Below are positions 1,260 to 50,424 of a stretch of DNA of 64,000 nt, one piece after another; within the stretch, counting starts at the first letter, position 1, and every line of letters starts with the position of its first letter. The translations under genes were made by a program, and so were the position numbers. Below the pieces are notes generated by a model. That model had not been told where the DNA came from and ran no database searches. It worked only from the letters and a program-made list of their open reading frames with translations. Where the stretch lies: NCBI GenBank assembly GCA_947503305.1, contig CANNDF010000002.1, positions 434,001 through 498,000 on the forward strand. The letters are read 5' to 3'. Source of the DNA: an uncultured Dokdonia sp. (GTDB lineage: Bacteria; Bacteroidota; Bacteroidia; Flavobacteriales; Flavobacteriaceae).

Positions 1260-1991
1260 GTGTTAAGCAAAAGTAATATCAAACGAATAACGGCATTGAC
1301 TCAAAAAAAGTACCGACAACGAGAGGGTGTTTTTGTGGCAGAGGGTATAAAAGTAATTAATGAGTTGCTAGAGTCAAGTTTTGATCTAGAAGTATTATAT
1401 AGTATTGATGAGTACGCTTTCGCGAAAGCGCAACCAGAAAAAATAACTGCAACAGAACTTAAAAAAATAAGCTTCCTTAAAACACCTCAGACTGCTCTGG
1501 CATTGTTTAAAATTCCGAATGCTAAATCATTGGAGAGATACGGAGTTACTGTCGTACTAGATGATATACGAGATCCGGGTAACTTAGGAACGATTATTAG
1601 ACTTTGTGATTGGTTTGGAATATCCAGTTTGGTATGTTCAAAACAAACCGTAGATTGTTACAATCCTAAAGTTGTACAGGCAACTATGGGATCTCTTTCA
1701 AGAGTATCCATTATATATACAGATATTGAAGTTTATTTAAAAGAAGAAAAAAGACCTATTTACGGAACGTTTATGAATGGGGAAAATTTGTATACTACTT
1801 CTGTATCTGGAGACAGTGTTATTGTAATGGGTAATGAAGCAAACGGGATATCATCTCTTATAGAAAATCTAGTTACAAAACGTATTGCCATACCACGTTT
1901 TGGGAAGCTTCAAAAAACAGAAAGCCTTAATGTAGCAACAGCGACAGCAATATGTTTAAGCGAGTTTAAAAGGCAGGCTATTGAAAAGTAA
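1260..1991 (+). CDS. TrmH/SpoU-family RNA 2'-O-methyltransferase
   Basis: SPOUT-fold methyltransferase expected to methylate a ribose 2'-OH in rRNA or tRNA using SAM. With the GTG at 1260 as start the protein has 243 residues, normal for the family. An N-terminal substrate-binding region (VFVAEG near residue 25) precedes the three SpoU motifs: DDIRDPGNLGTIIR at about 101-114 (Asn108, Arg114), MGNEANGIS at 190-198, and SLNVATAT at 222-229, which form the trefoil knot. An upstream in-frame ATG at 1149 is rejected because it would run through the opposite-strand tamL coding sequence and its residues look nothing like the family. Residues 53-57 (AFAKA) are encoded by a copy of the dispersed palindrome. 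The 3' end overlaps porT tail to tail by 14 bp. The exact RNA target cannot be told from sequence. Confidence 0.9.
   Translation: MLSKSNIKRITALTQKKYRQREGVFVAEGIKVINELLESSFDLEVLYSIDEYAFAKAQPEKITATELKKISFLKTPQTALALFKIPNAKSLERYGVTVVLDDIRDPGNLGTIIRLCDWFGISSLVCSKQTVDCYNPKVVQATMGSLSRVSIIYTDIEVYLKEEKRPIYGTFMNGENLYTTSVSGDSVIVMGNEANGISSLIENLVTKRIAIPRFGKLQKTESLNVATATAICLSEFKRQAIEK
1416..1429. repeat. Dispersed palindrome copy 1 (inside TrmH-family gene)
   Basis: Perfect GCTTTCGCGAAAGC, extended by one matching base pair on each side (1415-1430). It is read in the frame Ala-Phe-Ala-Lys-Ala. Confidence 0.95.
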
Positions 1992-2682
1992 AATTCAAAA
2001 AGACACCTCGAGAAGATAATTTGTTGATATTACCAGTCCAGGGACTATTAGGTCTGCTATCCCTTACCAATTCATCCGAAGTAGCAAATACTCCACGAAT
2101 ACTAGGTGTAAATTTAAAATAGAAAAGGTATAAGTCTATTCCAAAACCTACTTCATAAAAGAAAGGACTACTCGTCGTTCTAAACTGTCCAGCAAAATTA
2201 TCATCTGGATTATCTTCATTACTAGAAAGATTTATAGCAGTAGATACTCCGAAAGTAACAAAAGGTCTTACATTATTAAGACGCTTGGTATTGATTTTTA
2301 ATAATAAAGGCAAATAGATATAAGTAGCTGGGACTTCACGTATTAAATCACTTTCATTCTCAAAACGCGGATCTGGTGCATATATTAAATTACGTTGCGT
2401 AAAGGATAATCCTGGTTCTGTACGAAGGTCTACATATTCAGAAAGTCTGAGGTTTCCTATAAGGCCTACATTAAAACCTACACTACGTTCTACCTGTATG
2501 TCTTCTTGTTGATCTTGATAGTCAAAATTATAATCAAAAGAATTGATCCCAAAATAATACCCCCATGATATAGGTTTTTTGTCAAAATTTTGATCATTTT
2601 GTACACGAGGTCTTGTAAGCCATTGTGCATCAATGGTTTGAATAAATGTAAAAAAAAATGCTACTACAACAATAATTCTCAT
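1978..2682 (-). CDS. porT: PorT/SprT-like type IX secretion outer-membrane protein
   Basis: A 234-residue protein with a clear signal peptide (MRIIVVVAFFFTFIQTIDAQ) followed by alternating polar/hydrophobic strands and aromatic C-terminal strands ending in FLNFTFQ, as in an eight-stranded outer-membrane barrel. The segment KPISWGYYFGINSFDYNFDY and the position directly after menG match the PorT arrangement in flavobacteria. PorT is required for the type IX secretion system, which exports proteins carrying C-terminal sorting domains; two such cargo candidates are encoded in this window. The start is 4 bp after the menG stop, so the two are probably co-transcribed. The family call is from recognition of sequence and context. 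A generic outer-membrane beta-barrel protein is the alternative. Confidence 0.8.
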   Translation of the reverse strand: MRIIVVVAFFFTFIQTIDAQWLTRPRVQNDQNFDKKPISWGYYFGINSFDYNFDYQDQQEDIQVERSVGFNVGLIGNLRLSEYVDLRTEPGLSFTQRNLIYAPDPRFENESDLIREVPATYIYLPLLLKINTKRLNNVRPFVTFGVSTAINLSSNEDNPDDNFAGQFRTTSSPFFYEVGFGIDLYLFYFKFTPSIRGVFATSDELVRDSRPNSPWTGNINKLSSRGVFLNFTFQ

Positions 2683-2686
2683 GGAT

Positions 2687-3415
2687 CTATTTTGTGGCTG
2701 TATAAATGGTGGCTACACCAAAGGTTTGAGGTTTGTCTTCCACGTTGGTAAACCCAATTTTACGTAAAATATTGTTCAATGCTTCTCCAAAAGGAAAAAC
2801 TGAAGCACTTTCACTTAAATATGAATAGGCATCACGATCTTTAGAGAATAGGCGTCCTATAAGTGGCATAATGTATTTGCAATGTATGGTATATCCTTGT
2901 TTAAAAGGAGTTTTAGTAGGGACTGAAGTTTCTAAAATAACAAAAATTCCACCAGGTTTAAGGACTCTGTATATTTCTGCTAATCCTTTTTCTAAGGTTT
3001 CAAAATTACGAACACCAAATGCAACAGTAATAGCATCAAAACTATTATCTTCAAATGGCATAGCCTCACTATCTGCTTGTATCATCTGAATACGGTCTTC
3101 AAGCCCGCTTGCTTTTATTTTTTTACGACCTACAGATAACATGCCTTCAGAGATATCCAAACCTATAAGTTGGGATGCGCCACTTTCTGCCATATTTAAA
3201 ATAAGATCTCCAGTGCCTGTCGCAATATCAAGAATACTATCTGGATGGGTATCTGTAACCAGTGCCACTACCTTCTTTCTCCATTTTACATCAATCCCAA
3301 AAGAGATGACTCGATTAAGCCCGTCATATTCTCCAGAAATCGTGTCAAACATATGTTCGACTTGTTCTTTTTTTGATTGATCTGAAGATTTATATGGCGT
3401 TACTTTTTTTGCCAT
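2687..3415 (-). CDS. menG: Demethylmenaquinone methyltransferase
   Basis: Class I SAM methyltransferase of the UbiE/MenG family, performing the last C-methylation step of menaquinone synthesis. From the ATG at 3415 (MAKKVTPYKSS) it has 242 residues, the usual size. Visible motifs: HMFDTISGEYDGLNRVISFG near residues 21-40, the SAM-binding LDIATGTGD at 62-70, and AFGVRNF followed by EIYRVLKPGG, all signatures of UbiE. An ATG six codons upstream (MPKNCT) is possible but less likely. Bacteroidota generally use menaquinone, so menG is preferred to ubiE. A TATATTTG promoter-like element lies about 15 bp upstream. Confidence 0.93.
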   Translation of the reverse strand: MAKKVTPYKSSDQSKKEQVEHMFDTISGEYDGLNRVISFGIDVKWRKKVVALVTDTHPDSILDIATGTGDLILNMAESGASQLIGLDISEGMLSVGRKKIKASGLEDRIQMIQADSEAMPFEDNSFDAITVAFGVRNFETLEKGLAEIYRVLKPGGIFVILETSVPTKTPFKQGYTIHCKYIMPLIGRLFSKDRDAYSYLSESASVFPFGEALNNILRKIGFTNVEDKPQTFGVATIYTATK

Positions 3416-3429
3416 TGTGCAATTTTTTG

Positions 3430-3437
3430 GCAAATAT
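3430..3437 (-). promoter_or_regulatory. Candidate -7 box of menG-porT
   Basis: The reverse strand reads TATATTTG, fitting the Bacteroidota TAnnTTTG element, 15 bp before the menG ATG. No clear -33 TTG is seen at the expected spacing. Confidence 0.4.
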
Positions 3438-3548
3438 ACGGTATCAAAGTATAATGGAAGCCCATATATTGAAAGGGATTTTATACTTTAATACGGATGC
3501 TTGTATCACAATTATGAGTCTAATGTGTACTATATCTTATCAATCATG

Positions 3549-3556
3549 TATCTTTG
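3549..3556 (+). promoter_or_regulatory. Candidate -7 box of trkA
   Basis: TATCTTTG matches TAnnTTTG and lies 24 bp before the chosen trkA ATG. This supports the downstream start over the one at 3554, which would fall inside the promoter element. Confidence 0.45.
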
Positions 3557-3580
3557 CACTACTTTTCAGTTCATCATTAT

Positions 3581-4930: not shown

Positions 4931-4940
4931 GGAAAAAAGG

Positions 4941-6437: not shown

Positions 6438-6439
6438 AT

Positions 6440-7414: not shown

Positions 7415-7440
7415 TTTTGTTCCATAAAATGTTTCCTTAA

Positions 7441-8382: not shown

Positions 8383-8384
8383 TG

Positions 8385-8396: not shown

Positions 8397-8807
8397 ATGC
8401 TTTCGCGAAAAACAAAATATGGACTTAAGGCAATGACCTATATTGCAAAAAGAAGTGATAGGGCTACTGTATTAATCCAAGAAATTGCAGAAGCTGAGAA
8501 TATTTCGAGAAAGTTTTTAGAGAGTATTTTACTTTCCTTACGCAAGGCAGGATTTTTAGGAAGTAAGAAAGGAAAAGGAGGAGGATATTACCTTATAAAA
8601 GAACCTAAGGATATCAAAATGGCGTCGGTTATCAGAACACTAGAAGGGCCTATAGCAATGCTCCCTTGTGTGAGTCTTAATTTTTATGAAAAGTGTGAAG
8701 ATTGCCCAGATGAAGGTGCATGTAGTTTACATGTTTTAATGGAAGAAGTAAGAGATAGGACACTTGAAGTTCTTGAAAATAAGACACTTGAAGACCTTAT
8801 TTCGTAA
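8397..8807 (+). CDS. Rrf2-family transcriptional regulator with four cysteines
   Basis: A 136-residue winged-helix regulator of the Rrf2/IscR family. The DNA-binding half includes LIQEIAEAENISRKFLESIL and the wing GSKKGKGGGYYL. After the dimerisation helix come Cys91, Cys100, Cys103 and Cys109 (LPCVSLNFYEKCEDCPDEGA), a spacing suited to a sensory Fe-S cluster. It could sense iron, sulfur, nitric oxide or redox state. The first codons (ATG CTT TCG CGA AAA) contain 12 nt of the dispersed palindrome. It follows ctlX by 14 bp and may share its transcript. The regulon cannot be deduced from this window. Confidence 0.88.
   Translation: MLSRKTKYGLKAMTYIAKRSDRATVLIQEIAEAENISRKFLESILLSLRKAGFLGSKKGKGGGYYLIKEPKDIKMASVIRTLEGPIAMLPCVSLNFYEKCEDCPDEGACSLHVLMEEVRDRTLEVLENKTLEDLIS
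8399..8410. repeat. Truncated palindrome copy at the Rrf2 start
   Basis: GCTTTCGCGAAA, 12 of 14 bases of the dispersed palindrome, overlapping the start codon. It is read in the Leu-Ser-Arg-Lys frame, unlike the full copies inside genes. Confidence 0.7.
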
Positions 8808-10955: not shown

Positions 10956-10977
10956 ATATGCTTTCGCGAAAGCATAT
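10956..10977. repeat. Dispersed palindrome copy 2 (22-bp perfect palindrome after argS)
   Basis: The core GCTTTCGCGAAAGC (10960-10973) is extended by ATAT/ATAT to a perfect 22-bp palindrome, 7 bp past the argS stop. A short TTTT follows. It could act as a transcript-end hairpin, or be only a copy of the repeat. Confidence 0.9.
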
Positions 10978-16732: not shown

Positions 16733-17829
16733 TCCCTTTTTTAGATTTATATAGTGTGAATGCTCGATATGATAATGCGTTTCAAGAACGTTTTAAAGAT
16801 TTTCTTGAGAAAGGGTGGTATATCTTAGGAGAAGAAGTGTGCGCTTTTGAGAAAGAATTTGCTGCGTATTGTGGGACACAGTATTGTATAGGTACTGCAA
16901 ATGGACTTGATGCGATACGGATGATTTTAGAAGGGTATAAAATTTTAGGGAAGTTATCAGAAGGCGATGGAGTATTGGTAGCTTCAAATACATATATAGC
17001 TACTATTTTAGGAATACGTCAAGCGGGATTAACTCCTGTATTTGTAGAAGCTCACTTAGGAACTTATAATTTTGATTTTGAAGATCTTAATGCTAAAATT
17101 ACGGCAACTGCCAAAGTGATTATGCCTACACATCTATATGGTCAATTAACGGATATGGATATGGTAAATGCTTTCGCGAAAGCGAATAACTTACTTGTCA
17201 TAACCGATTCTGCACAGTCTCATGGAGCAATCGCCTCAAACGGGAAACGAAGTGGAAACTTAGCAGATGCTTCGGGGTTTAGTTTTTATCCTACAAAAAA
17301 CTTAGGTGCACTAGGTGATGGTGGGGCTGTGACTACAAATGATCAGGAGCTTGCTGAGGTATTACTAAAGTATAGAAACTACGGTTTTGGTAAACGTTAT
17401 GTGAGTGCCTATGAAGGGATAAATTCAAGACTAGATGAAGTTCAAGCCCTTTTTCTACGTTTAAAATTAAAAGATCTAGATACAGATAATCAACAAAGGA
17501 GGAGTATTGCAAGACGCTATTTAGAAGGTATAAAAAACACAAAAATACAACTCCCTGTTTGGGATGGTACAGACAATCATGTATTTCATCTTTTTGTAAT
17601 CAGAAGTAAAAATAGGGATCATTTACAAGAATATCTTACAGATAACGGTATAGGTACTATTGTTCATTATCCGATACCTCCATATCAACAGGAAGCATTA
17701 AAAGCGTATAACTATTTATCTTTTCCTGTTTCGGAAGAGATACATCGTACAGTGTTGAGTATTCCGTTAAGTCCTGTTATGAATGAGGAAAGTGTAGACG
17801 AGGTTATACGTGTTTTAAATAAATATTAA
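16729..17829 (+). CDS. DegT/DnrJ/EryC1-family sugar aminotransferase (FdtB/QdtB-like)
   Basis: PLP-dependent aminotransferase of 366 residues that should convert a keto sugar nucleotide to an amino sugar. The cofactor lysine is Lys190 in GFSFYPTKNLGALGDGGAV, and ITDSAQSHGA around 158-167 holds the pyridoxal ring. The C-terminal DNGIGTIVHYPIPPYQQEAL is typical of the FdtB/QdtB group making 3-amino-3,6-dideoxyhexoses. An FdtA-type ketoisomerase is encoded at 22074-22475 in the same locus, which supports a dTDP-Fuc3N or dTDP-Qui3N pathway. AFAKA at 148-152 comes from a palindrome copy. It overlaps the gene before it by 4 bp and abuts the one after it. Confidence 0.88.
   Translation: MIPFLDLYSVNARYDNAFQERFKDFLEKGWYILGEEVCAFEKEFAAYCGTQYCIGTANGLDAIRMILEGYKILGKLSEGDGVLVASNTYIATILGIRQAGLTPVFVEAHLGTYNFDFEDLNAKITATAKVIMPTHLYGQLTDMDMVNAFAKANNLLVITDSAQSHGAIASNGKRSGNLADASGFSFYPTKNLGALGDGGAVTTNDQELAEVLLKYRNYGFGKRYVSAYEGINSRLDEVQALFLRLKLKDLDTDNQQRRSIARRYLEGIKNTKIQLPVWDGTDNHVFHLFVIRSKNRDHLQEYLTDNGIGTIVHYPIPPYQQEALKAYNYLSFPVSEEIHRTVLSIPLSPVMNEESVDEVIRVLNKY
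17170..17183. repeat. Dispersed palindrome copy 3 (inside aminotransferase gene)
   Basis: Perfect GCTTTCGCGAAAGC in the Ala-Phe-Ala-Lys-Ala frame, within the helix before the PLP-binding ITDSAQSHGA strand. Confidence 0.95.
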
Positions 17830-21242: not shown

Positions 21243-22073
21243 ATGATAAACTCCCAAATAAGTTTTGAGATTTTGATTTCGACTATGTTTCGATCTGATC
21301 TGCTTTTTTTGGAAAAGATGTTTCCTAAAGGAAATTTTGAGAAATTTTCTATTTTGATAGTTAATCAGACAGATGCTAAGCGACAACTCAAATCTCCGTA
21401 TACAAATGTACGAGTTATAAATACAGAAGAGCGGGGTCTGCCACAAAGTCGTAATATGGCAATACGTAATGCTATCGGGGATATTTGTTTAATTGCAGAT
21501 GATGATGTTCTTTATAAAGAAGGCTTTGAATCTATTATTTTACAGGGATATATACAATATTCAAATGCTGCAGTAATTACCTTTCAACTAGAAGATACAG
21601 AGGGTACGTTATACCGAAAATATCCTAATAATCATGTCCATGATAATCAGTCTATTCATAGTGTTAATAGCGTTGTGATTAGTTTTAAGAGAAAATCGAT
21701 AATAGATTATAATATCTTATATAATCCGCATTTTGGTCTTGGATCCATTTTTGAAAGTGCCGATGAATACGTATTTATGAAGGATGTATTAAAGGCTGGA
21801 CTTCCCTCTTATTTTATCCCTAAGATACTACTTATTCATTCTAATCACAGTTCAGGAAGAGATCAAGGTAGCGATCGTTTATTATATGCCCGTGGAGCGT
21901 TGTCGTATAAATATTATGGAGCTTTAAGTTATCTTTGGGTAGTAAAGTACCTGTTTTTTATTGTTAGAAAGCGATATATTACTCCTAAGTACGCTTTCGC
22001 GAAAGCAAAAATAGCTTATGCTGGGATTAAAAAATATAAGTCATTATTAAAAACAGGAGAAGAACGTCGATAG
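21243..22073 (+). CDS. GT2-type glycosyltransferase
   Basis: A 276-residue GT-A glycosyltransferase. NTEERGLPQSRNMAIRNAIGD leads to the metal-binding acidic triad in IADDDVLY (Asp86-88). It has a C-terminal hydrophobic patch (YLWVVKYLFFIV) that may attach it to the inner membrane. AFAKA at residues 251-255 is encoded by a palindrome copy. The next gene, the FdtA homologue, begins immediately after its stop codon, so both are in one operon. Confidence 0.83.
   Translation: MINSQISFEILISTMFRSDLLFLEKMFPKGNFEKFSILIVNQTDAKRQLKSPYTNVRVINTEERGLPQSRNMAIRNAIGDICLIADDDVLYKEGFESIILQGYIQYSNAAVITFQLEDTEGTLYRKYPNNHVHDNQSIHSVNSVVISFKRKSIIDYNILYNPHFGLGSIFESADEYVFMKDVLKAGLPSYFIPKILLIHSNHSSGRDQGSDRLLYARGALSYKYYGALSYLWVVKYLFFIVRKRYITPKYAFAKAKIAYAGIKKYKSLLKTGEERR
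21993..22006. repeat. Dispersed palindrome copy 4 (inside GT2 gene)
   Basis: Perfect GCTTTCGCGAAAGC near the 3' end of the gene, in the Ala-Phe-Ala-Lys-Ala frame. Confidence 0.95.
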
Positions 22074-25195: not shown

Positions 25196-26710
25196 GTGTT
25201 TGTGAGTATTCATTCTTCGACCTACGATTCTTTATATAAAAAAGCTTCTAAAATAGTTTTGAGCTTAGGAATACTCCTTGCTAATATTCAATATTTCTCT
25301 GGTCGCAGTATCTGGCTTGATGAAGCTAGAGTTGCACTTAATGTCATTGAAAGGTCGTATATAGGACTTTTAGAACCCTTGCATAGTAATCAAGTAGCGC
25401 CTATTCTGTTCTTATGGGTAGAGCGCTTATTTGTTGATGTTTTTGGAGCCAATGACCTTTCTTTACGCTTATTCCCATTACTTGCTTATGTCATTACTGC
25501 CATTGTATTTTATAAGATTGTCAATCATTTATCAAAAGATGGGAAGTTTATATTTGTAGCTATTACCCTTTTTGCTTTTTGCCAACCTATTATTTATTTC
25601 TCATCTGAGCTTAAACAGTATATGCTAGATGTATGTATTGCCTGTATAGCATTGTATATTATCATAAAACCATATCGATCAGTATTCCAGAAAATACTAG
25701 TTCTAAGCTTTTTTGGTATTTTGAGTATAGGCCTTTCAAATATAGCAGTAGTTGTTCTTTTTACCATAGGTCTATACGGCTGGTACACTATATTTAAGCA
25801 AGGAAAAAAGGTATTTAATTATATGATTATTCCCATTGGAGTATGGGGCATTGTGTTTGGGTTGTATTATATGTTTTTTATATCAGGACATCCTAATCGA
25901 AGTATGATGATGCCTTTTTGGGAATATGCGTTTATGCCTTCTAACCCATTTTCTCAAGAGTTTTGGATATGGTGTTATGATCGTTATCGGATGACTTTTG
26001 GGCGTATTATGGGAGCAAATCCTAAGATTCCTTTTTTATACCATATGTATGGAGCTGTTTTTTTTATAGGGGTATATGCTTTCGCGAAAGCAAAAAAATG
26101 GGCTTTATTGTTTTTACTCTTATTTCCAATACTTACGCATTTGGGATTGTCATTATTTGAGCTATATCCTTATGAACGCAGAGTGGCTTTATATATACAA
26201 CCCCTACTAGCTCTAGTATGTGCCAAAGGGTTTGTGGCAGTAATTACAACTATCCAAGAACAATGGCCATTATTAAAAAAAGTAGGAATGTTAAGTTATT
26301 CTGTGCCTGGCCTTTTTTTACTGATCATTACATTATATACCTTTCCTAAAGAACGTGAAGAATTTAAAAAAAGCTATACACATATAAAAACACATATACG
26401 GGAAACAGATAAAATTTTATTAAGCCCTTCTACCGATAATGCATGGGAGTATTATAAAAGTATAGGATATATTCAACTTAAAAATAGAGTGCTTAATAGC
26501 GGTTACCATCGATCTGATTTTAATAAACATATTCAAGAACTAGATACCCTTAGTGGCAGGGTGTGGTATTTATTTTCTCATGACTATATAGATAAGCATA
26601 CTGATACTCGTGAGACAGATTTTATGATTAATCATATGAAAACCAATGGTGATGTTTTATTAGAAGAGAGGGCTACAGGAACTGGGGTATATCTATTTGA
26701 TTTTAAATAG
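25196..26710 (+). CDS. Polytopic membrane protein, GT39-like glycosyltransferase (putative)
   Basis: A 504-residue protein with about ten hydrophobic helices. The first loop, SGRSIWLDEARVALNVIERS, has the Asp-Glu pair of GT-C enzymes, and SSELKQYMLDV is typical of the ArnT/PMT-related group. A C-terminal soluble domain of about 130 residues includes LLSPSTDNAWEYYKSIGY. It would transfer sugar from a polyprenyl-phosphate donor outside the cytosol. The start is GTG at 25196; a second GTG two codons later is equally possible. It ends 2 bp from the opposite methyltransferase gene. Confidence 0.68.
   Translation: MFVSIHSSTYDSLYKKASKIVLSLGILLANIQYFSGRSIWLDEARVALNVIERSYIGLLEPLHSNQVAPILFLWVERLFVDVFGANDLSLRLFPLLAYVITAIVFYKIVNHLSKDGKFIFVAITLFAFCQPIIYFSSELKQYMLDVCIACIALYIIIKPYRSVFQKILVLSFFGILSIGLSNIAVVVLFTIGLYGWYTIFKQGKKVFNYMIIPIGVWGIVFGLYYMFFISGHPNRSMMMPFWEYAFMPSNPFSQEFWIWCYDRYRMTFGRIMGANPKIPFLYHMYGAVFFIGVYAFAKAKKWALLFLLLFPILTHLGLSLFELYPYERRVALYIQPLLALVCAKGFVAVITTIQEQWPLLKKVGMLSYSVPGLFLLIITLYTFPKEREEFKKSYTHIKTHIRETDKILLSPSTDNAWEYYKSIGYIQLKNRVLNSGYHRSDFNKHIQELDTLSGRVWYLFSHDYIDKHTDTRETDFMINHMKTNGDVLLEERATGTGVYLFDFK
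26078..26091. repeat. Dispersed palindrome copy 5 (inside GT39-like gene)
   Basis: Perfect GCTTTCGCGAAAGC in the Ala-Phe-Ala-Lys-Ala frame, in the cytosolic turn before a transmembrane helix. Confidence 0.95.
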
Positions 26711-31155: not shown

Positions 31156-31175
31156 TATGCTTTCGCGAAAGCATA
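31156..31175. repeat. Dispersed palindrome copy 6 (20-bp perfect palindrome in a leader)
   Basis: The core GCTTTCGCGAAAGC (31159-31172) is extended by TAT/ATA. It lies 36 bp before the TPR start codon, in the predicted mRNA leader. Confidence 0.92.
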
Positions 31176-31211: not shown

Positions 31212-34200
31212 ATGCAGAAAATAATCACGGTAATTACCGCATTCCTACTATACACAACGATACTTAACGCGCAACAAACAGCTATTTATACAGATGACCT
31301 CGTAAAATATAACAAAGCGTTGTCACTCTATAACAGTCAGCAATATCTAGCAGCACAATCACTTTTTGAAGAAGTGAAGACAGAATCTAGTGATAACACC
31401 ATACAAGGAGATTGTGCCTATTATATAGCAAATGCCGCTGTACGTCTCAATCAACAGGGAGCAGATGACCTTATGCAACGTTTTGTGACAGAGTTTCCTA
31501 CAAGTACAAAACGTAATGCGGCCTTTCTAGATGTAGCATCCTTTTATTTTGACAATGGAAAATATGCCTATGCACGTAAATGGTACGATCGCGTAGATGA
31601 AGATAAACTCACGGGAGGAACACGTGAGTTATTTGATTTTAATAATGGATATTCCTATTATAAAAGTAAGCAATACGATCAGGCAAAAAAATACCTAAAC
31701 CGTGTTAGTGACTCGCCAAAATATGGATCGCAGGCAAAGTATTACTTAGGATTTATGGCCTACGAAGGTGATGACTATGAAGAAGCAGACGAACTTTTTG
31801 AGCAAGTAGAAGGAGAAGAAGATTACAAAGAAGAACTCGCTTATTTTAAAGCAGATCTTAATTTTAAACTTGGGAAATTTGAGGAAGCTATCACCGAAGG
31901 AAAATCTCAACTTCCTAATGCAAATCCAAAAGAAAAATCTGAACTCAATAAAATCATAGGGGAAAGCCTTTTTAATCAAGAGAAGTATACGGAAGCTTTA
32001 CCTTATCTAAAAGAATATAAAGGAAAACGCGGTAAGTGGAATAATACAGATTATTACCAACTAGGATATACCTTTTACAAACAAGGCGATTACGAAAACG
32101 CCATAAATGAGTTTAATAAAATTGTAGATGGTAATAATCGAGTTGCTCAAAATGCCTATTACCACTTAGCAGAAGCTTACTTGAAAACGGATCGTAAGCA
32201 ACAGGCTTTAAATGCATTCAAAAATGCATCAGAAATGACCTTTGATGAAAAAATCAAAGAAGATAGTGGTTTGAATTATGCAAAGTTGAGTTATGAAATA
32301 GGAAATGCCTATCAGACAGTACCTCAAGTAGTATCAAACTATATCAAAGAGTACCCCAAAACCCCTGCAAAAGAAGAGTTAGAAACATTATTAATAGATT
32401 CATATATAACATCAAAAAATTATAAAGAAGCCCTCGTATTACTGGACAAATCAAAAAGTTTTGAAAACAAAGTGGCCTATCAAAAAGTAGCTTTCTATAG
32501 AGGTGTAGAATTATACAATGCAGGGAATTATCTGGATGCCAGAGTTACCTTTGGAAAATCTCTTGAAGAACCTCGTGATGAACAATTTGTAGCACGAGCT
32601 ATCTATTGGCAAGCCGAATGCGATTATGTGCTCAGCAATCACAAGGAAGCAGTAATAGGGTACAAGCAATACGCACAAACCACTGCTGCAAGTACAACAC
32701 CCGAATATAAAGATCTTAATTACAATCTAGCATACGCCTATTTTTCTGATAAAGAGTATGACAATGCGGCTACCTATTTTGAGCAATTTGCATCTCAAAA
32801 CTCGGAGGATATAGCACGTACTAATGATGCCTATTTACGATTAGGAGATAGTCGTTTTATATCTAGTAAATACTGGCCAGCATTAGAAGCTTATAATAAA
32901 GCGATTGCTCTTAATACAGCAGATAAGGACTATGCGGTTTTTCAAAAATCAATGAGTTATGGTTTTGTAGATCGTAATGAATCTAAAATAGAAGGGCTTA
33001 AAAACTTTACAACTAACTTTCCAAAATCAAGCTATCGTGATGATGCGTTATATGAACTTGGAAATGTATATGTATCTCAAAATAAAAATGAGCAAGCAAT
33101 AGCGGCATATGATCAATTAATGCGAGATATACCCAGAAGCTCATATATCTCTAGAGCCATGCTCAAAAAAGCACTTATTTATGATAATAGTGGAAAATCT
33201 GATGAAGCTCTGTCCATTCTTCGTGCTGTGGTAAGTACCTATCCGGGCACGCCTGAATCGTTACAAGCAATAACTACTGCAAAGCTTATATATATTGATT
33301 TGGGACGGGTAAACGAATATGGACAATGGGTAAGCACGCTAGATTTTATAGATGTGGAAGATGCAGAGCTAGATGATGCAGCATATACATCTGCCGAAAA
33401 GCAATACCTGGAAAATAATATAAATCCTGCGATGCGTTTATTTTCAGAATATCTGGAAACCTATCCTAATGGACAGCATGCATTAAAAGCGCATTTTTAT
33501 TTGGGACAATTGGCTTTCGCCAAAGAAGAGTACTCCACAACAATTCCTCACTATCAATTTGTGATTGAAAAGGAAAGATCAGAATTTACAGAGCAAGCTT
33601 TAGCTAGGTTGGGACAAGTATTTTTAACCGAAAGTAAATATGCCGAAGCAATTCCAGTATTAGGAAGACTAGAAACAGAAGCCGATTTTCCTCAGAATAT
33701 CATCTTTGCACAATCCAACTTAATGAAATCACATTACGAGCTGGAGAGCTATGTAGATGCTGTTTCATACGCAGAAAAAGTATTGACAAACACAAAAATT
33801 GATAATACGGTAAAAAGCGATGCTCAAGTAATTATTGCTAGAGCATCTATAAAAACAGGAGATGAGGATCGTGCAAAAACAGCATATTCCGAGGTTCAAA
33901 AAATAGCGACGGGCGCCTTAGCTGCAGAAGCACTGTATTACGATGCCTATTTTAAGCATATAGAAAACGACTTTAAAGGATCAAATACGGCGGTTCAGGA
34001 ATTGGCAAGAGACTATAGCGGTTATAAAGAGTATGGAGCAAAAGGACTCGTACTCATGGCTAAGAATTTTTATGCATTAGAAGATGCATATCAAGCAACC
34101 TATATTCTCGAAAGTGTCATTACCAACTTTGAAGATTACCCAGAAACGGTACAAGAAGCACAAGAACAGTTGGCACTTATCAAAGCTAATGAAGCCAAAA

Positions 34201-36592: not shown

Positions 36593-38233
36593 ATGAGACA
36601 CTCCTTTTTTTTGTCAATCTTAGGGATTTTTCTTTTTTTTTCATGCGATATTCCAAAAGAAAATGCAGACCTTCTTGTCATAAACGCAAATATCTACACG
36701 GTAGATACTGATTTTTCTAAGGCAAGCGCTTTTGCGATAAAGGATGACAAATTTGTAGCAGTCGGGACTACAGAAGATATACTTTCAAAGTACACAGCAG
36801 TACAAACCATTAATGCATCTGATAAAACAATTCTTCCAGGATTGATTGATGGACATTGCCACTTTTTTGGATTAGGACAGAACCTACAAGTTGTAGATTT
36901 AGTAGGAACGACAAGCTATGATGAGGTGTTGGAACGTGTATCCGCTTTCGCGAAAGCAAAACCTTCAACCACATTTCTTAGGGGAAGAGGATGGGATCAA
37001 AATGACTGGGAAATCAAAGAATTTCCAACCAAAGAGAAACTAGATGCCTTATTTCCTGAAATACCTGTAGCATTAGAACGCGTAGATGGACATGCATACC
37101 TTGTTAATCAAAAGGCACTAGATCTTGCAGGAATTACTAACACTACAGAGGTTGCTGGGGGAGAGATTGTAATGCAAGACGGTAATATCACAGGAGTTTT
37201 GGTAGATAGACCACAAGAGTTAGTAGATGCTGTAATGCCTAAAGCAAGTAGATCTCAAAACATAGCATCTCTTAAAGGAGCTCAAGAAGTGTGCTTTTCA
37301 TATGGACTTACAACAGTAAATGATGCAGGACTTAATAAGGATATCATTGATATGATTGATAGTTTACAAGTATCAGGAGATCTTAAAATGCGTGTCTATG
37401 CAATGATTAGTAATAACTCTGAAAATCTAAACCATTACCTGTCTATCGGAAAAGTAAAAACAGATTACCTGAATGTGCGTTCTGTCAAGGTTTATGGAGA
37501 TGGAGCTTTAGGGTCAAGAGGCGCAGCTTTAAAAGAGCCATATAGCGATAAAGATGGCCATTTTGGAGCCATGATAACACCCGTAGCAGAAATCCAAAAT
37601 CTTTCTAAACGTATTGCAGAAGCAGGATATCAAATGAATACACATGCTATAGGAGATAGTGCAAATGTGGTCGTATTAAGAGCCTATAAAGAAGCATTAA
37701 AAAATATTGAGGATCCACGATGGAAAGTAGAGCATGCGCAAGTAGTCTCACAAGAGGATTTTGAATATTTTACAACAAAGATATTGCCTTCAGTACAACC
37801 TACTCATGCAACAAGCGATATGTATTGGGCTGAAGATAGGGTGGGGGCTTCTCGTATAAAAGGCGCATATGCATTTAAAGACCTATTACAAAAATCTGGG
37901 AGAGTCATCTTAGGAACCGACTTCCCTGTAGAACATGTAAGCCCTTTTTATACATTTTATGCAGCAGTGGCCCGTAAAGATTTAAAGGATTATCCAGAAG
38001 GAGGATATAGAATGGAGAATGCATTAAGTAGAGAAGAAACATTAAAAGGCATGACTATTTGGGCAGCCTATTCAAATTTTGAAGAACAAGAAAAAGGAAG
38101 TATTGAAGTAGGGAAATTTGCAGATTTTGTCATTATGGATAAAGATATTATGTCTGTACCCGAAAACGAGATTCCACTCCTTACTGTAAAAGCTACCTAT
38201 GTGGGTGGAGAAAAAGTCTATGAAAGAGAATAG
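36593..38233 (+). CDS. Amidohydrolase-family lipoprotein (YtcJ-like)
   Basis: A 546-residue metal-dependent hydrolase of the amidohydrolase superfamily (Amidohydro_3 type). A lipoprotein signal peptide with FFSC (Cys18) places it in the envelope. The metal-binding HxH is His88/His90 in LPGLIDGHCHFFGLG. Other signatures are VKVYGDGALGSRGAAL, MNTHAIGDSANVVVL, WKVEHAQVV and LGTDFPVEHVSPFYT. The C-terminal EVGKFADFVIMDKDIM is the returning beta-sandwich. The substrate in this family is rarely known. AFAKA at 118-122 is encoded by a palindrome copy. The DUF3820 gene starts directly after its stop. Confidence 0.87.
   Translation: MRHSFFLSILGIFLFFSCDIPKENADLLVINANIYTVDTDFSKASAFAIKDDKFVAVGTTEDILSKYTAVQTINASDKTILPGLIDGHCHFFGLGQNLQVVDLVGTTSYDEVLERVSAFAKAKPSTTFLRGRGWDQNDWEIKEFPTKEKLDALFPEIPVALERVDGHAYLVNQKALDLAGITNTTEVAGGEIVMQDGNITGVLVDRPQELVDAVMPKASRSQNIASLKGAQEVCFSYGLTTVNDAGLNKDIIDMIDSLQVSGDLKMRVYAMISNNSENLNHYLSIGKVKTDYLNVRSVKVYGDGALGSRGAALKEPYSDKDGHFGAMITPVAEIQNLSKRIAEAGYQMNTHAIGDSANVVVLRAYKEALKNIEDPRWKVEHAQVVSQEDFEYFTTKILPSVQPTHATSDMYWAEDRVGASRIKGAYAFKDLLQKSGRVILGTDFPVEHVSPFYTFYAAVARKDLKDYPEGGYRMENALSREETLKGMTIWAAYSNFEEQEKGSIEVGKFADFVIMDKDIMSVPENEIPLLTVKATYVGGEKVYERE
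36944..36957. repeat. Dispersed palindrome copy 7 (inside amidohydrolase gene)
   Basis: Perfect GCTTTCGCGAAAGC in the Ala-Phe-Ala-Lys-Ala frame. Confidence 0.95.
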
Positions 38234-41173: not shown

Positions 41174-41195
41174 TTATGCTTTCGCGAAAGCATAA
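41174..41195. repeat. Dispersed palindrome copy 8 (22-bp perfect palindrome)
   Basis: The core GCTTTCGCGAAAGC (41178-41191) is extended by TTAT/ATAA. It lies 35 bp upstream of the phosphatase start, between it and the amtB terminator. Confidence 0.92.
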
Positions 41196-43954: not shown

Positions 43955-43985
43955 AATAGTTGATTTGTATGATTCATAATCACGC

Positions 43986-43993: not shown

Positions 43994-44009
43994 ACTAAAT
44001 TGTTTTCTA

Positions 44010-44029
44010 ACCCTCAAAAAAATGGGGGT
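44010..44029. promoter_or_regulatory. Operator-like site 1, ACCC-N10-GGGGGT
   Basis: A 20-bp dyad whose central A-tract contains the candidate -33 box of the porin operon. A protein bound here would compete with RNA polymerase. It has the same layout as site 2, 53 bp away. Confidence 0.5.
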
Positions 44030-44062
44030 CAGAATATAATTTTTGTGAATATACAATATTAT

Positions 44063-44082
44063 ACCCTATAAATTTTGGGGGT
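44063..44082. promoter_or_regulatory. Operator-like site 2, ACCC-N10-GGGGGT
   Basis: A second 20-bp dyad with the same tips and spacer length as site 1. The 53-bp offset equals about five helical turns, placing both sites on the same DNA face. Confidence 0.5.
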
Positions 44083-44409
44083 ATTCAATTTTAAGTGTCA
44101 AATTTTAAGAATTCTAAATGATGAATTTTGAAGAAACTTTAATTTTTATGTTAATTTTTAGAAATAATTTTATAAAAAATCAGTTTTATTGAATTTACGA
44201 TAACGTTTTCGTGTTTTTTCCTATTTTAGGATACTAGAAAAACGGTTTCGAAAATCACAATTTTACCCCCTTATTATTTATATATTTTAATTTTTTTGTA
44301 TTAAAAAATGGGATACTCATAATAATATAATGGGCATTATGCGTAGGTGAAAACTCATTATATATTAGTAAAGATGGAATCATCCATTTCTATTTGAAAA
44401 AATGAGTTT

Positions 44410-47400
44410 ATGTTAGAAAAACAAGGGTTATATCTGCCAGAGTTTGAACACGATAATTGTGGTGCTGGATTTATATGTAGTTTAAAAGGAATTAAGTCTA
44501 ATGATATTATTCATAAGGCACTTGAAATTTTAGAAAAGTTAGAACATCGAGGTGCTGTAAGTGCCGATGGAAAAACTGGAGATGGTGCAGGGATTTTAAT
44601 TGATATTCCTCATGATTTTTTTAAGTTAGAATGTAATTTTAATTTGCCAGCTGCTGGAACATATGCAGTAAGCAATGTTTTTCTTCCGCGAAAGCAAAAC
44701 CAACAAGAGTATTGTGTTTCTATTTTTGAAAATACTCTAAAAGAACAAAACCTGTCAATCCTAGGATGGCGTGATGTTCCTGTAGATGATACTGTACTTG
44801 GAGAAATTGCTAGAGAAACAGAACCTTTTGTTAAACAAATTTTTGTAGAACGTACTTCTGCAAAAATGACAGATTTTGAATTCAATCTTAAATTATTTAT
44901 TGCTAGAAAAAAAGCAGAGCATACTATTTATAGCTCTAAGCTCTCAGAAAGTTCTTTTTTCTATCTACCTAGTTTTTCTACAAAGACAATAATATATAAA
45001 GGACTTTTACGTCCTCAGGATATCAAAGCATATTATAAAGACCTTGATGAACCTACAGTAGTTACACGTCTTGCCTTGGTGCATCAGCGTTTTTCTACAA
45101 ATACGTTTCCTACCTGGGATCTTGCCCAGCCTTTCAGATATATGTGTCATAATGGGGAGATCAATACCCTTCGAGGAAATGTATCTCGCATGTTTTCTAG
45201 AGAAGAATTAATGGAAAGTAGCTTGTTTGGTGATGAGATTAAAAACATATTACCTGTTGTATTACCTCATAAGTCCGACTCTGCTACCATGGATATGGTT
45301 GTAGAATTATTATTGATGACGGGCCGTTCATTGCCCGAAGTGATGATGATGTTAGTTCCAGAAGCCTGGGAGAAAAATAAAGAAATGTCTGTAGCAAAGA
45401 GGGCCTTTTATGAATATAACGCTTGTCTAATGGAACCTTGGGATGGACCAGCATCTATCCCCTTTACAGATGGCAATTATATAGGGGCGGTACTTGATCG
45501 CAATGGTCTGCGTCCTTCTCGATATTCGGTTACAAAAGATGGGTATGTGATTATGTCTTCAGAAACGGGGGTAGTAGACATTTCTCCTAAAAATATAGAA
45601 TATCATGGTCGCTTAGAACCTGGACGGATGTTTCTGGTTAATATGGATGAGGGCAGAATTGTGAATGACAAAGAGATTAAAGAAGAGATTGCTTCTAGGC
45701 ATCCTTATCAAAAATGGTTAGATAAAAATTTAGTACACCTTAAGGATATTCCTTATAATGAATGTCCTGTTTTTTTAAATGAAAAGCCATTAAAAACAAG
45801 ACTCCTTAGTTTTGGGTACACACAGGAAGATATCAATACAATTATCTTACCTATGGCGATTCAAGGAAAAGAGCCTATAGGGTCTATGGGTAATGATGCT
45901 CCTATTGCATTACTTTCTAGTAAACCACAGTTGTTATATAATTATTTTAAACAACTTTTTGCACAAGTGACTAATCCTCCTTTGGATGGAATACGGGAAG
46001 AACTTATTACGGATATTAGTCTTACCTTAGGAAGTGATGCCAATATTTTTGAAATTAATGATGCGCATTGTAAAAAATTAAAAATCCAAAACCCTGTTAT
46101 ATCTAAACAAGATCTGGATAAGATTAAGAGTTATCAGACATCAAATTTTAAAGTAACCTCAGTTCCTATTTTATATGAAGCCAAGCGAGGACATAATGGT
46201 CTTGAAGATGCTTTGGAGGAAACATTGCTAGCTGTTGAAAAAGCAATAGATGAAGGGACAAATATCGTAATACTTTCAGATCGTAATACATCCGAAACGA
46301 TGTCGCCTATTCCAGCATTATTGGCATGTTCCTATGTTAATAACGGACTAACAAAATTAGGAAAGCGTTCGCGTTTAAGTTTGATTATTGAATCTGCCGA
46401 ACCCAGAGAAGTACATCACTTTGCTTTACTTTTTGGATATGGTGCGAGTGCTATTAACCCCTATATGGTTAATGAGATTATAGAACAACACAGTAGAGAT
46501 CTAGAGGAAGCCAGTGTTACTGTAGAAGAAGCTATTCAAAATTTTAATAAAGCGGTAGGGAAAGGAGTTCTAAAAGTGATGAATAAAATAGGGATCTCTA
46601 CATTAAACTCGTATCGAAGTTCCCAATTATTTGAATGTGTAGGGATTAATACACGGGTAGTCACAAAGTATTTTCCTGGCACGGTTACAAGGTTAGAAGG
46701 TATTGGACTTCGTACTATTGAAAAAGAGATGTCCAAGCGTCATAAACGTGCTTTCGCTAAAGCAAATATCTCAGCAAACCTCGATATTGAAATAGGAGGA
46801 AATTATCGCTGGAGACGGGATGGGGAGCACCATCTTTTTAATCCGCTTACGGTGGCAAAACTTCAAGAATCTGTACGTAGTAATAAGCCCGAGGTATATG
46901 CAGAGTATGCTAAGCGAGTTAATGACCAAACCAAACAGTTAATGACAATTCGGGGCATGTTTGAGTTTACAAATTACGACCCTATAGATATAGAAGAAGT
47001 AGAGCCATGGACAGAGATCGTAAAACGATTTAAGACAGGCGCAATGTCTTATGGCTCTATCAGCAAAGAAGCACATGAAACACTAGCTGTTGCTATGAAT
47101 CGTATTGAAGGGAAGAGCAACTCTGGTGAGGGAGGAGAAAATCAAGATCGATTTTATAAAGATGTAAATGGTGACTGGAAGAATAGCGCTATTAAGCAAG
47201 TGGCATCAGGACGTTTTGGAGTGACATCCAATTATTTGACCAATGCAGCAGAAATTCAGATAAAAATGGCACAAGGAGCCAAACCTGGTGAAGGAGGACA
47301 ATTGCCTGGTTCTAAGGTTAATCCAGAAATTGCAAAAACTAGAAATTCGACACCTTATGTAGGTTTGATTTCACCCCCACCACATCATGATATTTATTCT

Positions 47401-48912
47401 ATAGAAGACTTATCACAATTAATTTATGACTTAAAATCTGCAAATAGAGAGGCGCGTATTAACGTAAAACTAGTTTCAGAGATAGGAGTAGGAACGGTAG
47501 CAGCTGGTGTTGCAAAAGCAAAAGCAGACGTTATTCTTATTTCTGGACATGATGGCGGTACAGGAGCCACTCCACTTACTTCTTTAAAACATGCAGGGCT
47601 TCCATGGGAGTTAGGCCTTGCCGAAGCGCAACAAACGCTAGTAATGAATGATCTTCGTAGTCGTGTAGTTTTAGAATGTGATGGTCAATTAAAGACGGGT
47701 CGCGATGTAGCGATTGCTTGTTTATTAGGAGCAGAAGAATTTGGGTTTGCAACAGCACCATTAGTAGCTTCGGGGTGTATTATGATGCGGGTATGTCACC
47801 TTAATACATGCCCTGTGGGGATTGCTACTCAAAACCCTGAATTGCGTAAAAAATTTAAAGGAAAGCCAGAACATGTGGTTAACTTTATGTATTTCGTAGC
47901 CCAAGAATTACGTGAAATTATGGCAAAACTTGGTTTTAAAACGGTTAACGAAATGGTTGGGCAAGTACATAAACTAGATCGTAATAAAACCATAGAATCA
48001 TATAAGACATTAGGTATAGATTTATCACCTATTCTTCATGAAGTAAAGGCTGCTGAAGGAGTTGCCATACGGAATACAGATATACAACAACATGATCTGG
48101 AAAAATCATTGGATTTTGAAATTATAAAGAAAGCTCATCCAGCTCTTTTTAGAAAAGAAAAAACAGTACTTGACTTTCCTATAACTAATGAAGATCGTGC
48201 CGTAGGTGCTATTCTGAGTAATGAGATTTCAAAGATATATAGTGTTCAAGGGCTTCCCGAGAATACATTAAAAATCAATTTTACAGGGTCTGCCGGTCAG
48301 AGTTTTGGTGCTTTTGCTACTCATGGGCTTACACTTTCTGTAACAGGAAATACAAATGATTATATAGGGAAAGGGCTGTCTGGAGCTAAGCTTATTGTGC
48401 GTGTGCCAGAAGATGCGACCATCACTCCAGAAGAAAATGTTATTATAGGAAATGTTGCTTTTTATGGCGCAACATCTGGAGAAGCTTATATTAATGGAAA
48501 AGCTGGAGAACGTTTCTGTGTTCGTAATTCTGGAGCAAGGGCTGTTGTAGAAGGAATAGGAGATCATGGGTGTGAGTATATGACTGGGGGTGTTGCTGTT
48601 ATTTTAGGAGAGGTAGGACGCAATTTTGGTGCTGGAATGAGTGGAGGAATTGCTTATGTATATGATAAGAAAGGGTCCCTTTTTCAAAATACAAGTCTCG
48701 AAGGACTTAATCTAGATCCTATTACTGAGAGTAAAGATAAAGATCAATTGAGACGCCTTGTTGAAAATCATTACAATGCTACTTTAAGTCCGCTGGCACA
48801 GCGATTATTAGAAAATTGGGAAAAAGAACTTACGCACTTTATAAAAGTTCTTCCTGAAGAATATAAACAAGCACTTATCCGATTAGAAAAAGAAAATACA
48901 ATAACTGCATAA
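44410..48912 (+). CDS. gltB: Glutamate synthase, large (alpha) subunit
   Basis: A 1500-residue enzyme that converts glutamine and 2-oxoglutarate to two glutamates. The class II glutamine amidotransferase domain opens with HDNCGAGFI; Cys17 is the expected nucleophile after removal of a short pro-sequence. The central domain and the FMN-binding synthase domain (GEGGENQDRFY, GAKPGEGGQLPGSKV, SGHDGGTGATPL) follow. The 3Fe-4S cysteines are Cys1123, Cys1129 and Cys1134 (CIMMRVCHLNTCPVG). The C-terminal GXGXG beta-helix has RNSGARAVVEGIGDHGCEYM. It is operonic with gltD (4 bp gap) and divergent from the porin-glnB-amtB operon. Residues 781-785 come from a one-mismatch palindrome copy. Confidence 0.97.
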   Translation: MLEKQGLYLPEFEHDNCGAGFICSLKGIKSNDIIHKALEILEKLEHRGAVSADGKTGDGAGILIDIPHDFFKLECNFNLPAAGTYAVSNVFLPRKQNQQEYCVSIFENTLKEQNLSILGWRDVPVDDTVLGEIARETEPFVKQIFVERTSAKMTDFEFNLKLFIARKKAEHTIYSSKLSESSFFYLPSFSTKTIIYKGLLRPQDIKAYYKDLDEPTVVTRLALVHQRFSTNTFPTWDLAQPFRYMCHNGEINTLRGNVSRMFSREELMESSLFGDEIKNILPVVLPHKSDSATMDMVVELLLMTGRSLPEVMMMLVPEAWEKNKEMSVAKRAFYEYNACLMEPWDGPASIPFTDGNYIGAVLDRNGLRPSRYSVTKDGYVIMSSETGVVDISPKNIEYHGRLEPGRMFLVNMDEGRIVNDKEIKEEIASRHPYQKWLDKNLVHLKDIPYNECPVFLNEKPLKTRLLSFGYTQEDINTIILPMAIQGKEPIGSMGNDAPIALLSSKPQLLYNYFKQLFAQVTNPPLDGIREELITDISLTLGSDANIFEINDAHCKKLKIQNPVISKQDLDKIKSYQTSNFKVTSVPILYEAKRGHNGLEDALEETLLAVEKAIDEGTNIVILSDRNTSETMSPIPALLACSYVNNGLTKLGKRSRLSLIIESAEPREVHHFALLFGYGASAINPYMVNEIIEQHSRDLEEASVTVEEAIQNFNKAVGKGVLKVMNKIGISTLNSYRSSQLFECVGINTRVVTKYFPGTVTRLEGIGLRTIEKEMSKRHKRAFAKANISANLDIEIGGNYRWRRDGEHHLFNPLTVAKLQESVRSNKPEVYAEYAKRVNDQTKQLMTIRGMFEFTNYDPIDIEEVEPWTEIVKRFKTGAMSYGSISKEAHETLAVAMNRIEGKSNSGEGGENQDRFYKDVNGDWKNSAIKQVASGRFGVTSNYLTNAAEIQIKMAQGAKPGEGGQLPGSKVNPEIAKTRNSTPYVGLISPPPHHDIYSIEDLSQLIYDLKSANREARINVKLVSEIGVGTVAAGVAKAKADVILISGHDGGTGATPLTSLKHAGLPWELGLAEAQQTLVMNDLRSRVVLECDGQLKTGRDVAIACLLGAEEFGFATAPLVASGCIMMRVCHLNTCPVGIATQNPELRKKFKGKPEHVVNFMYFVAQELREIMAKLGFKTVNEMVGQVHKLDRNKTIESYKTLGIDLSPILHEVKAAEGVAIRNTDIQQHDLEKSLDFEIIKKAHPALFRKEKTVLDFPITNEDRAVGAILSNEISKIYSVQGLPENTLKINFTGSAGQSFGAFATHGLTLSVTGNTNDYIGKGLSGAKLIVRVPEDATITPEENVIIGNVAFYGATSGEAYINGKAGERFCVRNSGARAVVEGIGDHGCEYMTGGVAVILGEVGRNFGAGMSGGIAYVYDKKGSLFQNTSLEGLNLDPITESKDKDQLRRLVENHYNATLSPLAQRLLENWEKELTHFIKVLPEEYKQALIRLEKENTITA
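46750..46763. repeat. Degenerate palindrome copy in gltB (one mismatch)
   Basis: GCTTTCGCTAAAGC, again read Ala-Phe-Ala-Lys-Ala. It may be an eroded or incipient copy of the dispersed palindrome. Confidence 0.6.
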
Positions 48913-48916
48913 TGCT

Positions 48917-50386
48917 ATGGGAAAAGTAACAGGATTTTTAGAATACAAAAGAGTAGATGAGACGTATGCTTCTGTAGAAGATCGTCTTAAAGATTATAAA
49001 GAGTTTACTATTCCTTTAAAAGAAAAAGAGCTCAAAAAACAAGGAGGGAGATGTATGGATTGTGGGATTCCATTTTGCCATAGTGGGTGTCCTTTAGGAA
49101 ATCTAATACCGGATTTTAATGACATGGTTTATAAAGGTCGTTGGAAAGAAGCTGCCCAGATACTGCATGCTACCAATAATTTTCCTGAGTTTACAGGAAG
49201 GTTATGTCCTGCCCCTTGTGAAGAAGCATGTGTTTTAGGAATTAATGAAGATCCAGTAAGTATAGAAAATATTGAAAAAAATATTGTAGAACGTGCCTTT
49301 TCCGAAGGTTGGATCATTGCACAACCTCCTTTGCATCGTTCAGAAAAATCGGTTGCGGTTATTGGATCTGGCCCTTCTGGATTGGCCACTGCACAGCAAC
49401 TCAATAGGGCGGGTCATTCCGTGACCGTTTTTGAACGTGATTCAAAAATAGGAGGGTTGTTGCGTTATGGAATCCCTGATTTTAAAATGGAAAAAAATGT
49501 AATCGATAGGCGTCTTGCTATTTTAGAAGAAGAGGGGATTGTTTTTATTACTAACACTGAAGTAGGTAAGGATATTAGTATAGAAACATTACAGAATAGT
49601 TTTGATGCCATTGTTCTCTGTGGTGGAGCGACTGTACGAAGAGGGATCCCGATTAAAGGTGCACATCTTAAAGGAGTATACCAAGCGATGGATTTTCTTA
49701 AGCAAAATAACGAACGTGTTGATGGTCTTACCGATTTTGAAGAAGAGCTCACGGCAGCAAATAAAAATGTCATTGTAATAGGCGGAGGTGATACAGGATC
49801 TGATTGTATAGGAACCTCCAATCGCCATGGAGCATTATCAGTTACAAACTTTGAGATTTTAAGTAAACCTACTATTGAACGACCTGAAGAGCAACCATGG
49901 CCCTACTGGCCTATGCGATTGCGTACAAGTTCATCACATAAAGAAGGTGTAGAGCGTGTTTTTAGTATTTCTACAAAAGAGTTTTTAGGAGATGCCAAAG
50001 GAAATGTAACAGGTCTCGTTACTGTAGAGGTAGAATGGATTAAAAAAGATGGTCACCGCCCTCAACTTCAAGAAATTGAAGGAACAGAAAAAAAATGGGA
50101 TTGTAATATGGTATTACTAGCTCTTGGTTTTACAGGACCTGAAAAGACACTGATAGATCAATTAGGACTAGACACAGATTTGAGAGGTAATGTAAAGGCG
50201 TCTACGGTAAATTATAGTACCAATGTTCAAGGTGTATTTACGGCAGGAGATATGCGTCGAGGGCAATCTCTTATCGTATGGGCAATCTCAGAAGGTCGTC
50301 AAGTAGCACATCATGTAGATGCGTATCTAATGGGGGCTTCCCAATTACCATTAAAAGATGAAGAAAGTGATTTGCCTAGGGTATAA
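48917..50386 (+). CDS. gltD: Glutamate synthase, small (beta) subunit
   Basis: A 489-residue NADPH-dependent flavoprotein that passes electrons to GltB. The N-terminal Fe-S domain has GGRCMDCGIPFCHSGCPLGN (Cys46, Cys49, Cys54, Cys58) and a second group in RLCPAPCEEACVLGI. FAD binding is at VIGSGPSGLATAQQL near residue 147, and NADPH binding at VIGGGDTGSDCIG near 291. The C-terminal GVFTAGDMRRGQSLIVWAIS is the second FAD motif. Full length; it ends 8 bp before a 30-bp palindrome that probably stops the gltBD transcript. Confidence 0.97.
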   Translation: MGKVTGFLEYKRVDETYASVEDRLKDYKEFTIPLKEKELKKQGGRCMDCGIPFCHSGCPLGNLIPDFNDMVYKGRWKEAAQILHATNNFPEFTGRLCPAPCEEACVLGINEDPVSIENIEKNIVERAFSEGWIIAQPPLHRSEKSVAVIGSGPSGLATAQQLNRAGHSVTVFERDSKIGGLLRYGIPDFKMEKNVIDRRLAILEEEGIVFITNTEVGKDISIETLQNSFDAIVLCGGATVRRGIPIKGAHLKGVYQAMDFLKQNNERVDGLTDFEEELTAANKNVIVIGGGDTGSDCIGTSNRHGALSVTNFEILSKPTIERPEEQPWPYWPMRLRTSSSHKEGVERVFSISTKEFLGDAKGNVTGLVTVEVEWIKKDGHRPQLQEIEGTEKKWDCNMVLLALGFTGPEKTLIDQLGLDTDLRGNVKASTVNYSTNVQGVFTAGDMRRGQSLIVWAISEGRQVAHHVDAYLMGASQLPLKDEESDLPRV

Positions 50387-50394
50387 TAATTATA

Positions 50395-50424
50395 AATCGT
50401 ACGCTTTCGCGAAAGCGTACGATT
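50395..50424. repeat. Dispersed palindrome copy 9: 30-bp perfect palindrome between convergent genes
   Basis: The core GCTTTCGCGAAAGC (50403-50416) is flanked by AATCGTAC on the left and its exact complement GTACGATT on the right. It begins 8 bp after the gltD stop and ends 13 bp before the ABC ATPase stop. As RNA it would form a stem of about 13-15 bp, so it may terminate both transcripts, though only short T-runs follow. Confidence 0.93.

Follow-up and report, generated by a model that had tools for sequence, protein, structure and literature searches.

The stretch studied here (hereafter the window) is a 64-kb segment of contig CANNDF010000002.1 from an uncultured Dokdonia sp., and the element in question is the 14-bp perfect palindrome GCTTTCGCGAAAGC, which recurs in it as nine exact copies. 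Each of these copies was found where the original prediction had placed it. When the window was shuffled 100 times with dinucleotides preserved, no match appeared; the prediction had itself put the chance expectation at far less than one copy. Five copies lie within open reading frames (ORFs), as had been reported, and all five are read in the frame that yields the peptide AFAKA. They are located in an RlmB/TrmH-like RNA methyltransferase ORF (positions 1416-1429, within a 16-bp palindrome), a PseC-like aminotransferase ORF (17170-17183), a glycosyltransferase-like ORF (21993-22006), an ORF at 25196-26710 (14-mer at 26078-26091 within a 16-bp palindrome at 26077-26092) and an amidohydrolase-like ORF (36944-36957), whose site is compared with its orthologues below. 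The other four, described earlier as intergenic, indeed extend into longer perfect palindromes of 22, 20, 22 and 30 bp. One of them occupies 10956-10977 (14-mer at 10960-10973), between argS and the ORF that follows, and another 50395-50424 (14-mer at 50403-50416), between the convergent gltD-like ORF and the next one. The copies at 31156-31175 (14-mer at 31159-31172) and 41174-41195 (14-mer at 41178-41191) fall inside mechanically called ORFs, at the very start of a TPR-protein ORF and a Wzb-like phosphatase ORF, respectively. The former may be intergenic and the latter probably is: the palindrome there includes the ATG, and the match to the protein family is seen only from residue 22-23 onward, which makes a start further downstream probable. 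All five degenerate copies noted previously are also present, with two mismatches at 8399-8412, 33513-33526, 44682-44695 and 53709-53722 and one mismatch at 46750-46763; only the start of the 53709 copy, given before as 53711, had to be corrected.

The palindrome is not confined to the window. The genome to which the window belongs (G000; 4,264,867 bases in 57 contigs) contains 570 copies, as compared to none of a reversed-letter control and to an expectation of 0.001-0.013 under Markov models of orders 1-5, which were trained on 464 kb of G000 with the motif masked. The copies thus reach well beyond the window and far exceed the Markov expectation, and the genome-wide counts in this genome and its relatives bear out the earlier view of a highly iterated palindrome, HIP1-like but of another sequence. 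Exact copies also outnumber their nearest variants: 400 kb of genome G016 contain 104 exact and 7 one-mismatch copies, although 42 one-mismatch forms are possible, and the corresponding numbers are 50 and 11 for genome G230 and 62 and 12 for 464 kb of G000. Beyond the core, the flanks prefer G at +1 (0.62-0.88) and A at +3 (0.53-0.79) and are poor in G from +4 to +6 (0-0.10) in Dokdonia and Nonlabens samples. The invariant 14-mer carries ~28 bits, whereas 11.8 bits would be enough to mark 899 sites in 3.29 Mb; such an excess of information is what would be expected if drive, and not recognition alone, fixed the sites. Neither the 14-mer nor its 12-mer core was found in the open PubMed Central (PMC) literature, the only literature searched.

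This motif anatomy bears on a role as a long, HIP1-like methylation or restriction site. Perfect symmetry and a CGCG center would suit such a site, as would the confinement of TTCGCGAA to TTTCGCGAAA, which is complete in the G000 sample (72 of 72) and less sharp in G016 (125 of 127) and G230 (61 of 81); moreover, TCGCGA is absent from both Nonlabens phages considered below. However, the exact core spans 14 bp and base preferences extend several bp further out, a length too great for the usual methyltransferases. We therefore regard this explanation as very unlikely.

Within Dokdonia, the palindrome was present in all 18 genomes sampled, including that of the window, and the other 17 carry 369-905 copies. 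A survey of 397 genomes of the family yielded six with at least 408 copies (two Dokdonia, three Nonlabens and one of genus g210), 74 with 1-19 and 317 with none. Twenty genomes were reached via motif-bearing loci among the matches listed; among these, four Nonlabens genomes and BBFL7, placed with Nonlabens by a TypA tree, contain 551-701 copies, two Dokdonia genomes 857 and 903, and 11 others 1-10. Altogether, the Nonlabens group shows 551-701 copies in eight genomes, and g210 408 copies in one. The twenty also include two genomes named Cytophagaceae bacterium, namely SAT51 (see below) and SAT149, which has 369 copies, the same count as the Dokdonia genome G005. Across the phylum, 395 genomes were sampled that included no other Dokdonia, Nonlabens or g210 genome; among them, the 12-mer core exceeded 11 copies only in G000. 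Two single-gene comparisons bear on the relationships of the carriers. ArgS proteins of genera lacking the palindrome are closer to that of the window than the Nonlabens protein is, and in the TypA tree, built from 30 genomes, g210 is the neighbor of Dokdonia (86/85, not starred) and Nonlabens branches elsewhere, with a single clade of all carriers being weakly rejected (p-AU, approximately unbiased test, 0.038).

Several genomes fall between or outside these groups. Cytophagaceae bacterium SAT51 has 89 copies in 5.0 Mb, intermediate between the carriers and the rest, and may represent a mixed metagenome-assembled genome or a diverging lineage. The highest counts outside the carrier genera among the 397 family genomes are 16-19 exact copies in each of G116, G326 (both g96) and G091 (g71). 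Some genomes of g147 have the 12-mer core as many as 11 times, as compared to 0-1 for the control, and no strong tag. An iterated palindrome of this kind was not seen in 16 of 17 other genera, for each of which one 20-kb stretch was inspected. A different odd palindrome, ACTTTGSCAAAGT, was observed in G063 (contig C1, locus L370), where it occurs 127 times in a 2.6-Mb genome as compared to twice in a sister species; its copies are clustered and often paired 18 bp apart. Within the window, a separate feature is a tandem array of five successive minus-strand ORFs of 785-801 aa at 51133-63123.

To approach the origin of the sites, we compared the one at 36944 across 12 Dokdonia loci, its own included, all read on the plus strand. 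Six loci have the exact site; in the other six this segment is likewise ungapped and differs from the motif at 1-5 positions, four of these six still coding for AFAKA. Five of the six loci without the exact site have a copy ~235 bp upstream; for the sixth, L402, the 4.6-kb locus contains no copy. Amidohydrolase-like proteins of outgroups likewise align at the site without an insert, one of them with a deletion. Judging from this ungapped alignment across loci and outgroups, the site was formed by substitution and not by insertion, and sites turn over.

These data speak directly to the suggestion that the palindrome is a small mobile element, of the repetitive extragenic palindrome (REP) or miniature inverted-repeat transposable element (MITE) type, or else a hairpin terminator. 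In 464 kb of G000, 24 of 62 sites lie outside ORFs although only ~10% of the sequence is non-coding (binomial 1e-9), and since some starts of the mechanically called ORFs are probably wrong, this count is likely a lower bound. Such an enrichment would suit a mobile palindrome or a terminator. However, the remaining 38 sites are in ORFs, close pairs are rare, and convergent gaps, which hold 6 of the 24 outside-ORF sites, are not clearly enriched. At the only site for which orthologues were aligned, the evidence contradicts the mobile palindrome put forward earlier, and we rejected an inserted REP or MITE on the amidohydrolase alignment of this one gene; the terminator was rejected because the flanks contain no T-run. 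Both forms of this explanation are thus highly improbable.

The sites within ORFs leave a mark on the proteins. Their distribution over the three frames in G000 is AFAKA in 19, FRES in 11 and LSRK in 8 of 38 cases (unequal frames, p 0.08). The AFAKA peptide occurs 23, 34 and 27 times in the G000, G016 and G230 samples, as compared to 0.1 expected from composition, and is encoded by the motif in 16 of 23, 33 of 34 and 27 of 27 instances, respectively. Twenty control stretches from low- or no-copy genomes, a set that left out G063 and three stretches chosen for motif clusters, contained a single AFAKA that was not motif-coded. AFAKA represents a clean case of a DNA-level signal dictating protein sequence.

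Where measured, spacing is more regular than under random placement. Two stretches of G000 contig C1, which were picked after the gaps were seen, give a coefficient of variation (CV) of the spacing of 0.48 for 51 sites and 0.44 for 31 sites; G016 gives 0.61 (67 listed sites), and random placement 0.95-0.98. Gaps below 1 kb number 1, 0 and 2 in these three samples, whereas 7.1, 3.8 and 16.4 are expected at random. The CV is 0.54 and 0.64 in two D. pacifica contigs and 0.33 in the window; when large gaps and islands are included, the full list of 100 sites on G000 C1 gives 1.15, and the spacing is then not regular. Twenty 20-kb bins of the G016 chromosome contain 2-8 copies each, with a variance of half the mean (P 0.035), and the bins of G230 contain 0-6 (variance 2.2, mean 2.5). 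No clear trend runs over the 20 G016 bins, on a chromosome whose origin and terminus are not firmly placeable, and a segregation mark with regional bias was not seen there. Of the interpretations first offered for the palindrome, the highly iterated palindrome thus holds and the mobile element fails at the site compared; among the others, which include uptake or repair and chromosome organization, an uptake-type profile gives the best fit.

Even spacing raises the possibility of an anchor for a nucleoid or chromosome-organizing protein that would bind every few kb round the chromosome, with selection for regular spacing keeping the sites. Perfect symmetry suits a cytoplasmic dimer, each of the 20 G016 bins holds copies without a clear trend, and the motif is missing from a stretch with a conjugation gene and from two phages (see below). 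Sites of the Noc, SlmA and MatP type show regional bias, in contrast to what was seen in the 20 bins of this one chromosome, and ~28 bits, where 11.8 would do, are more than recognition would require. A matching reader was sought in 14 carrier genomes and 14 genomes with 0-7 copies (hereafter low-copy genomes). Chromosomal ParB is present in all 28, and no ParB paralogue specific to the carriers was found: two of the 14 carriers and four of the 14 low-copy genomes have extra ParB-type genes, of ~600 aa apart from one broken fragment. Furthermore, the residues of the ParB recognition helix do not sort cleanly with carriage, the Dokdonia residue being shared by Leeuwenhoekiella (two comparisons, one covering 8 and the other 14 of the 28). 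We therefore rejected a ParB- or Noc-like reader. Because symmetry and regular spacing suit a nucleoid protein, it stays a close rival, and an anchoring role is possible, if doubtful. For uptake sequences, too, Karlin and colleagues took even spacing to point to a function in replication, repair or compaction (PMC1939737).

Copies are missing from some probably foreign DNA, although certain viral contigs do carry them (see below). A 63-kb stretch of G000 C1 (326-389 kb), chosen because it is motif-free, encodes a coupling protein of a conjugative type IV secretion system in one of ten ORFs scanned, and a second long motif-free gap lies at 747-823 kb. Two whole Nonlabens phages of 35.7 kb have no copy, as compared to ~7 each calculated from host density; being close relatives, they count as one observation. 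Such a pattern would also suit a self-DNA mark that serves defense or recombination-repair (Chi-like, or for self/non-self discrimination) and not uptake, and regular spacing would tag every long fragment. Chi sites, however, are short, oriented and not palindromic, and we consider this explanation unlikely.

In some low-copy genomes from outside the carrier genera, the copies are clustered. Two sites 933 bp apart are common to six genomes (G118, G127, G141, G200, G254 and G454), and the one motif cluster scanned for protein families (L379 in G118) is a metal-resistance island that encodes a resistance-nodulation-division (RND) pump, OEP, a multicopper oxidase, an ArsP-type permease and P-type ATPases. 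This island is matched at 75-79% by loci L380, L387 and L070 from several Flavobacteriaceae genera. We read such clusters as transfers of tagged DNA; other genomes (e.g. G389 and G390) have a small number of scattered copies that this reading does not explain. The motif could serve as a tracer: its presence in another genus may indicate DNA that came by way of Dokdonia or Nonlabens, the metal-resistance island being an example.

Taken together, copy number, copies within coding sequence, origin by substitution and even spacing speak for a drive that a putative DNA reader would maintain, and not for a small mobile palindrome. On this basis we tentatively favor, over an anchor for chromosome architecture, a genome-wide self-DNA tag that would work like a DNA uptake sequence. 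A protein of Dokdonia, Nonlabens and g210, probably a symmetric dimer, would bind the site with high specificity, and DNA bearing it would have an advantage when cells take up or recombine DNA from their own kind. Recombined alleles would then spread the site by molecular drive, and because a site near another would gain little, spacing would be evened out. Origin by point mutation and scarcity in newly acquired and constrained sequence are described as hallmarks of uptake sequences in PMC7811141, and even spacing in PMC1939737. Riemerella columbina, a member of the Flavobacteriaceae in its authors' classification, prefers its own DNA in transformation; their search for words of up to 10 bp returned A+T-rich words only, whose action they leave open, and they found Flavobacterium johnsoniae not to be competent (PMC7965970).

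Several observations weigh against an uptake-type tag. No reader was found among ParB, T2SSE motor and ComEC proteins in the comparison of 14 carriers with 14 low-copy genomes. Four of the 14 carriers, one being G000, and two of the 14 low-copy genomes have a T2SSE-type motor ATPase that scores above the cut-off; we thus rejected the type IV pilus motor as a marker of carriage, and 10 of 14 carriers have no pilus-type motor above the cut-off. ComEC is present in all 14 carriers and equally in all 14 low-copy genomes, and therefore discriminates nothing. In addition, 11 of 120 motif-bearing viral-contig stretches among the matches listed, whose hosts were not identified, contain 2-3 copies, and known uptake sequences are not palindromes according to PMC1939737. 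Given its palindromy and the lack of a pilus-type motor in most carriers, we describe the motif as working like an uptake sequence and do not file it as one. A stronger claim, which we put forward with considerable doubt, is that it represents the first uptake tag to be palindromic and also the first known from Bacteroidota. A symmetric reader would then take up or select self DNA, in most carriers without a type IV pilus, and drive would have written the motif into many proteins in Dokdonia, Nonlabens and a third genus. If so, the self-DNA tags, of which few are known, would extend to another phylum and another type of symmetry, and probably to a new reader.

Among known systems, HIP1, the cyanobacterial octamer GCGATCGC, is likewise a perfect iterated palindrome found in genes and between them; the Dokdonia motif differs in its length of 14 instead of 8 bp, its sparser occurrence, its sequence and its host family, the Flavobacteriaceae. 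The sites bound by Noc, a member of the ParB family, are dispersed palindromes of similar length that also have TTTC/GAAA arms, whereas the Dokdonia motif has hundreds of copies, no regional bias that we could see and no carrier-specific ParB paralogue. Palindromes of the REP/RAYT (REP-associated tyrosine transposase) type share its dispersal and enrichment between genes; in contrast to these, it was formed by substitution at the site compared, is frequent in ORFs and is evenly spaced. From the uptake sequences of Pasteurellaceae (uptake signal sequence, USS) and Neisseriaceae (DNA uptake sequence, DUS) it is set apart by its perfect palindromy, its longer invariant core, its occurrence in Bacteroidota and the lack, in 10 of the 14 carriers tested, of a pilus-type motor above the cut-off. 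With these sequences, as described in PMC7811141 and PMC1939737, it shares hundreds of near-exact copies, origin by point mutation, even spacing and the location of many copies in genes.

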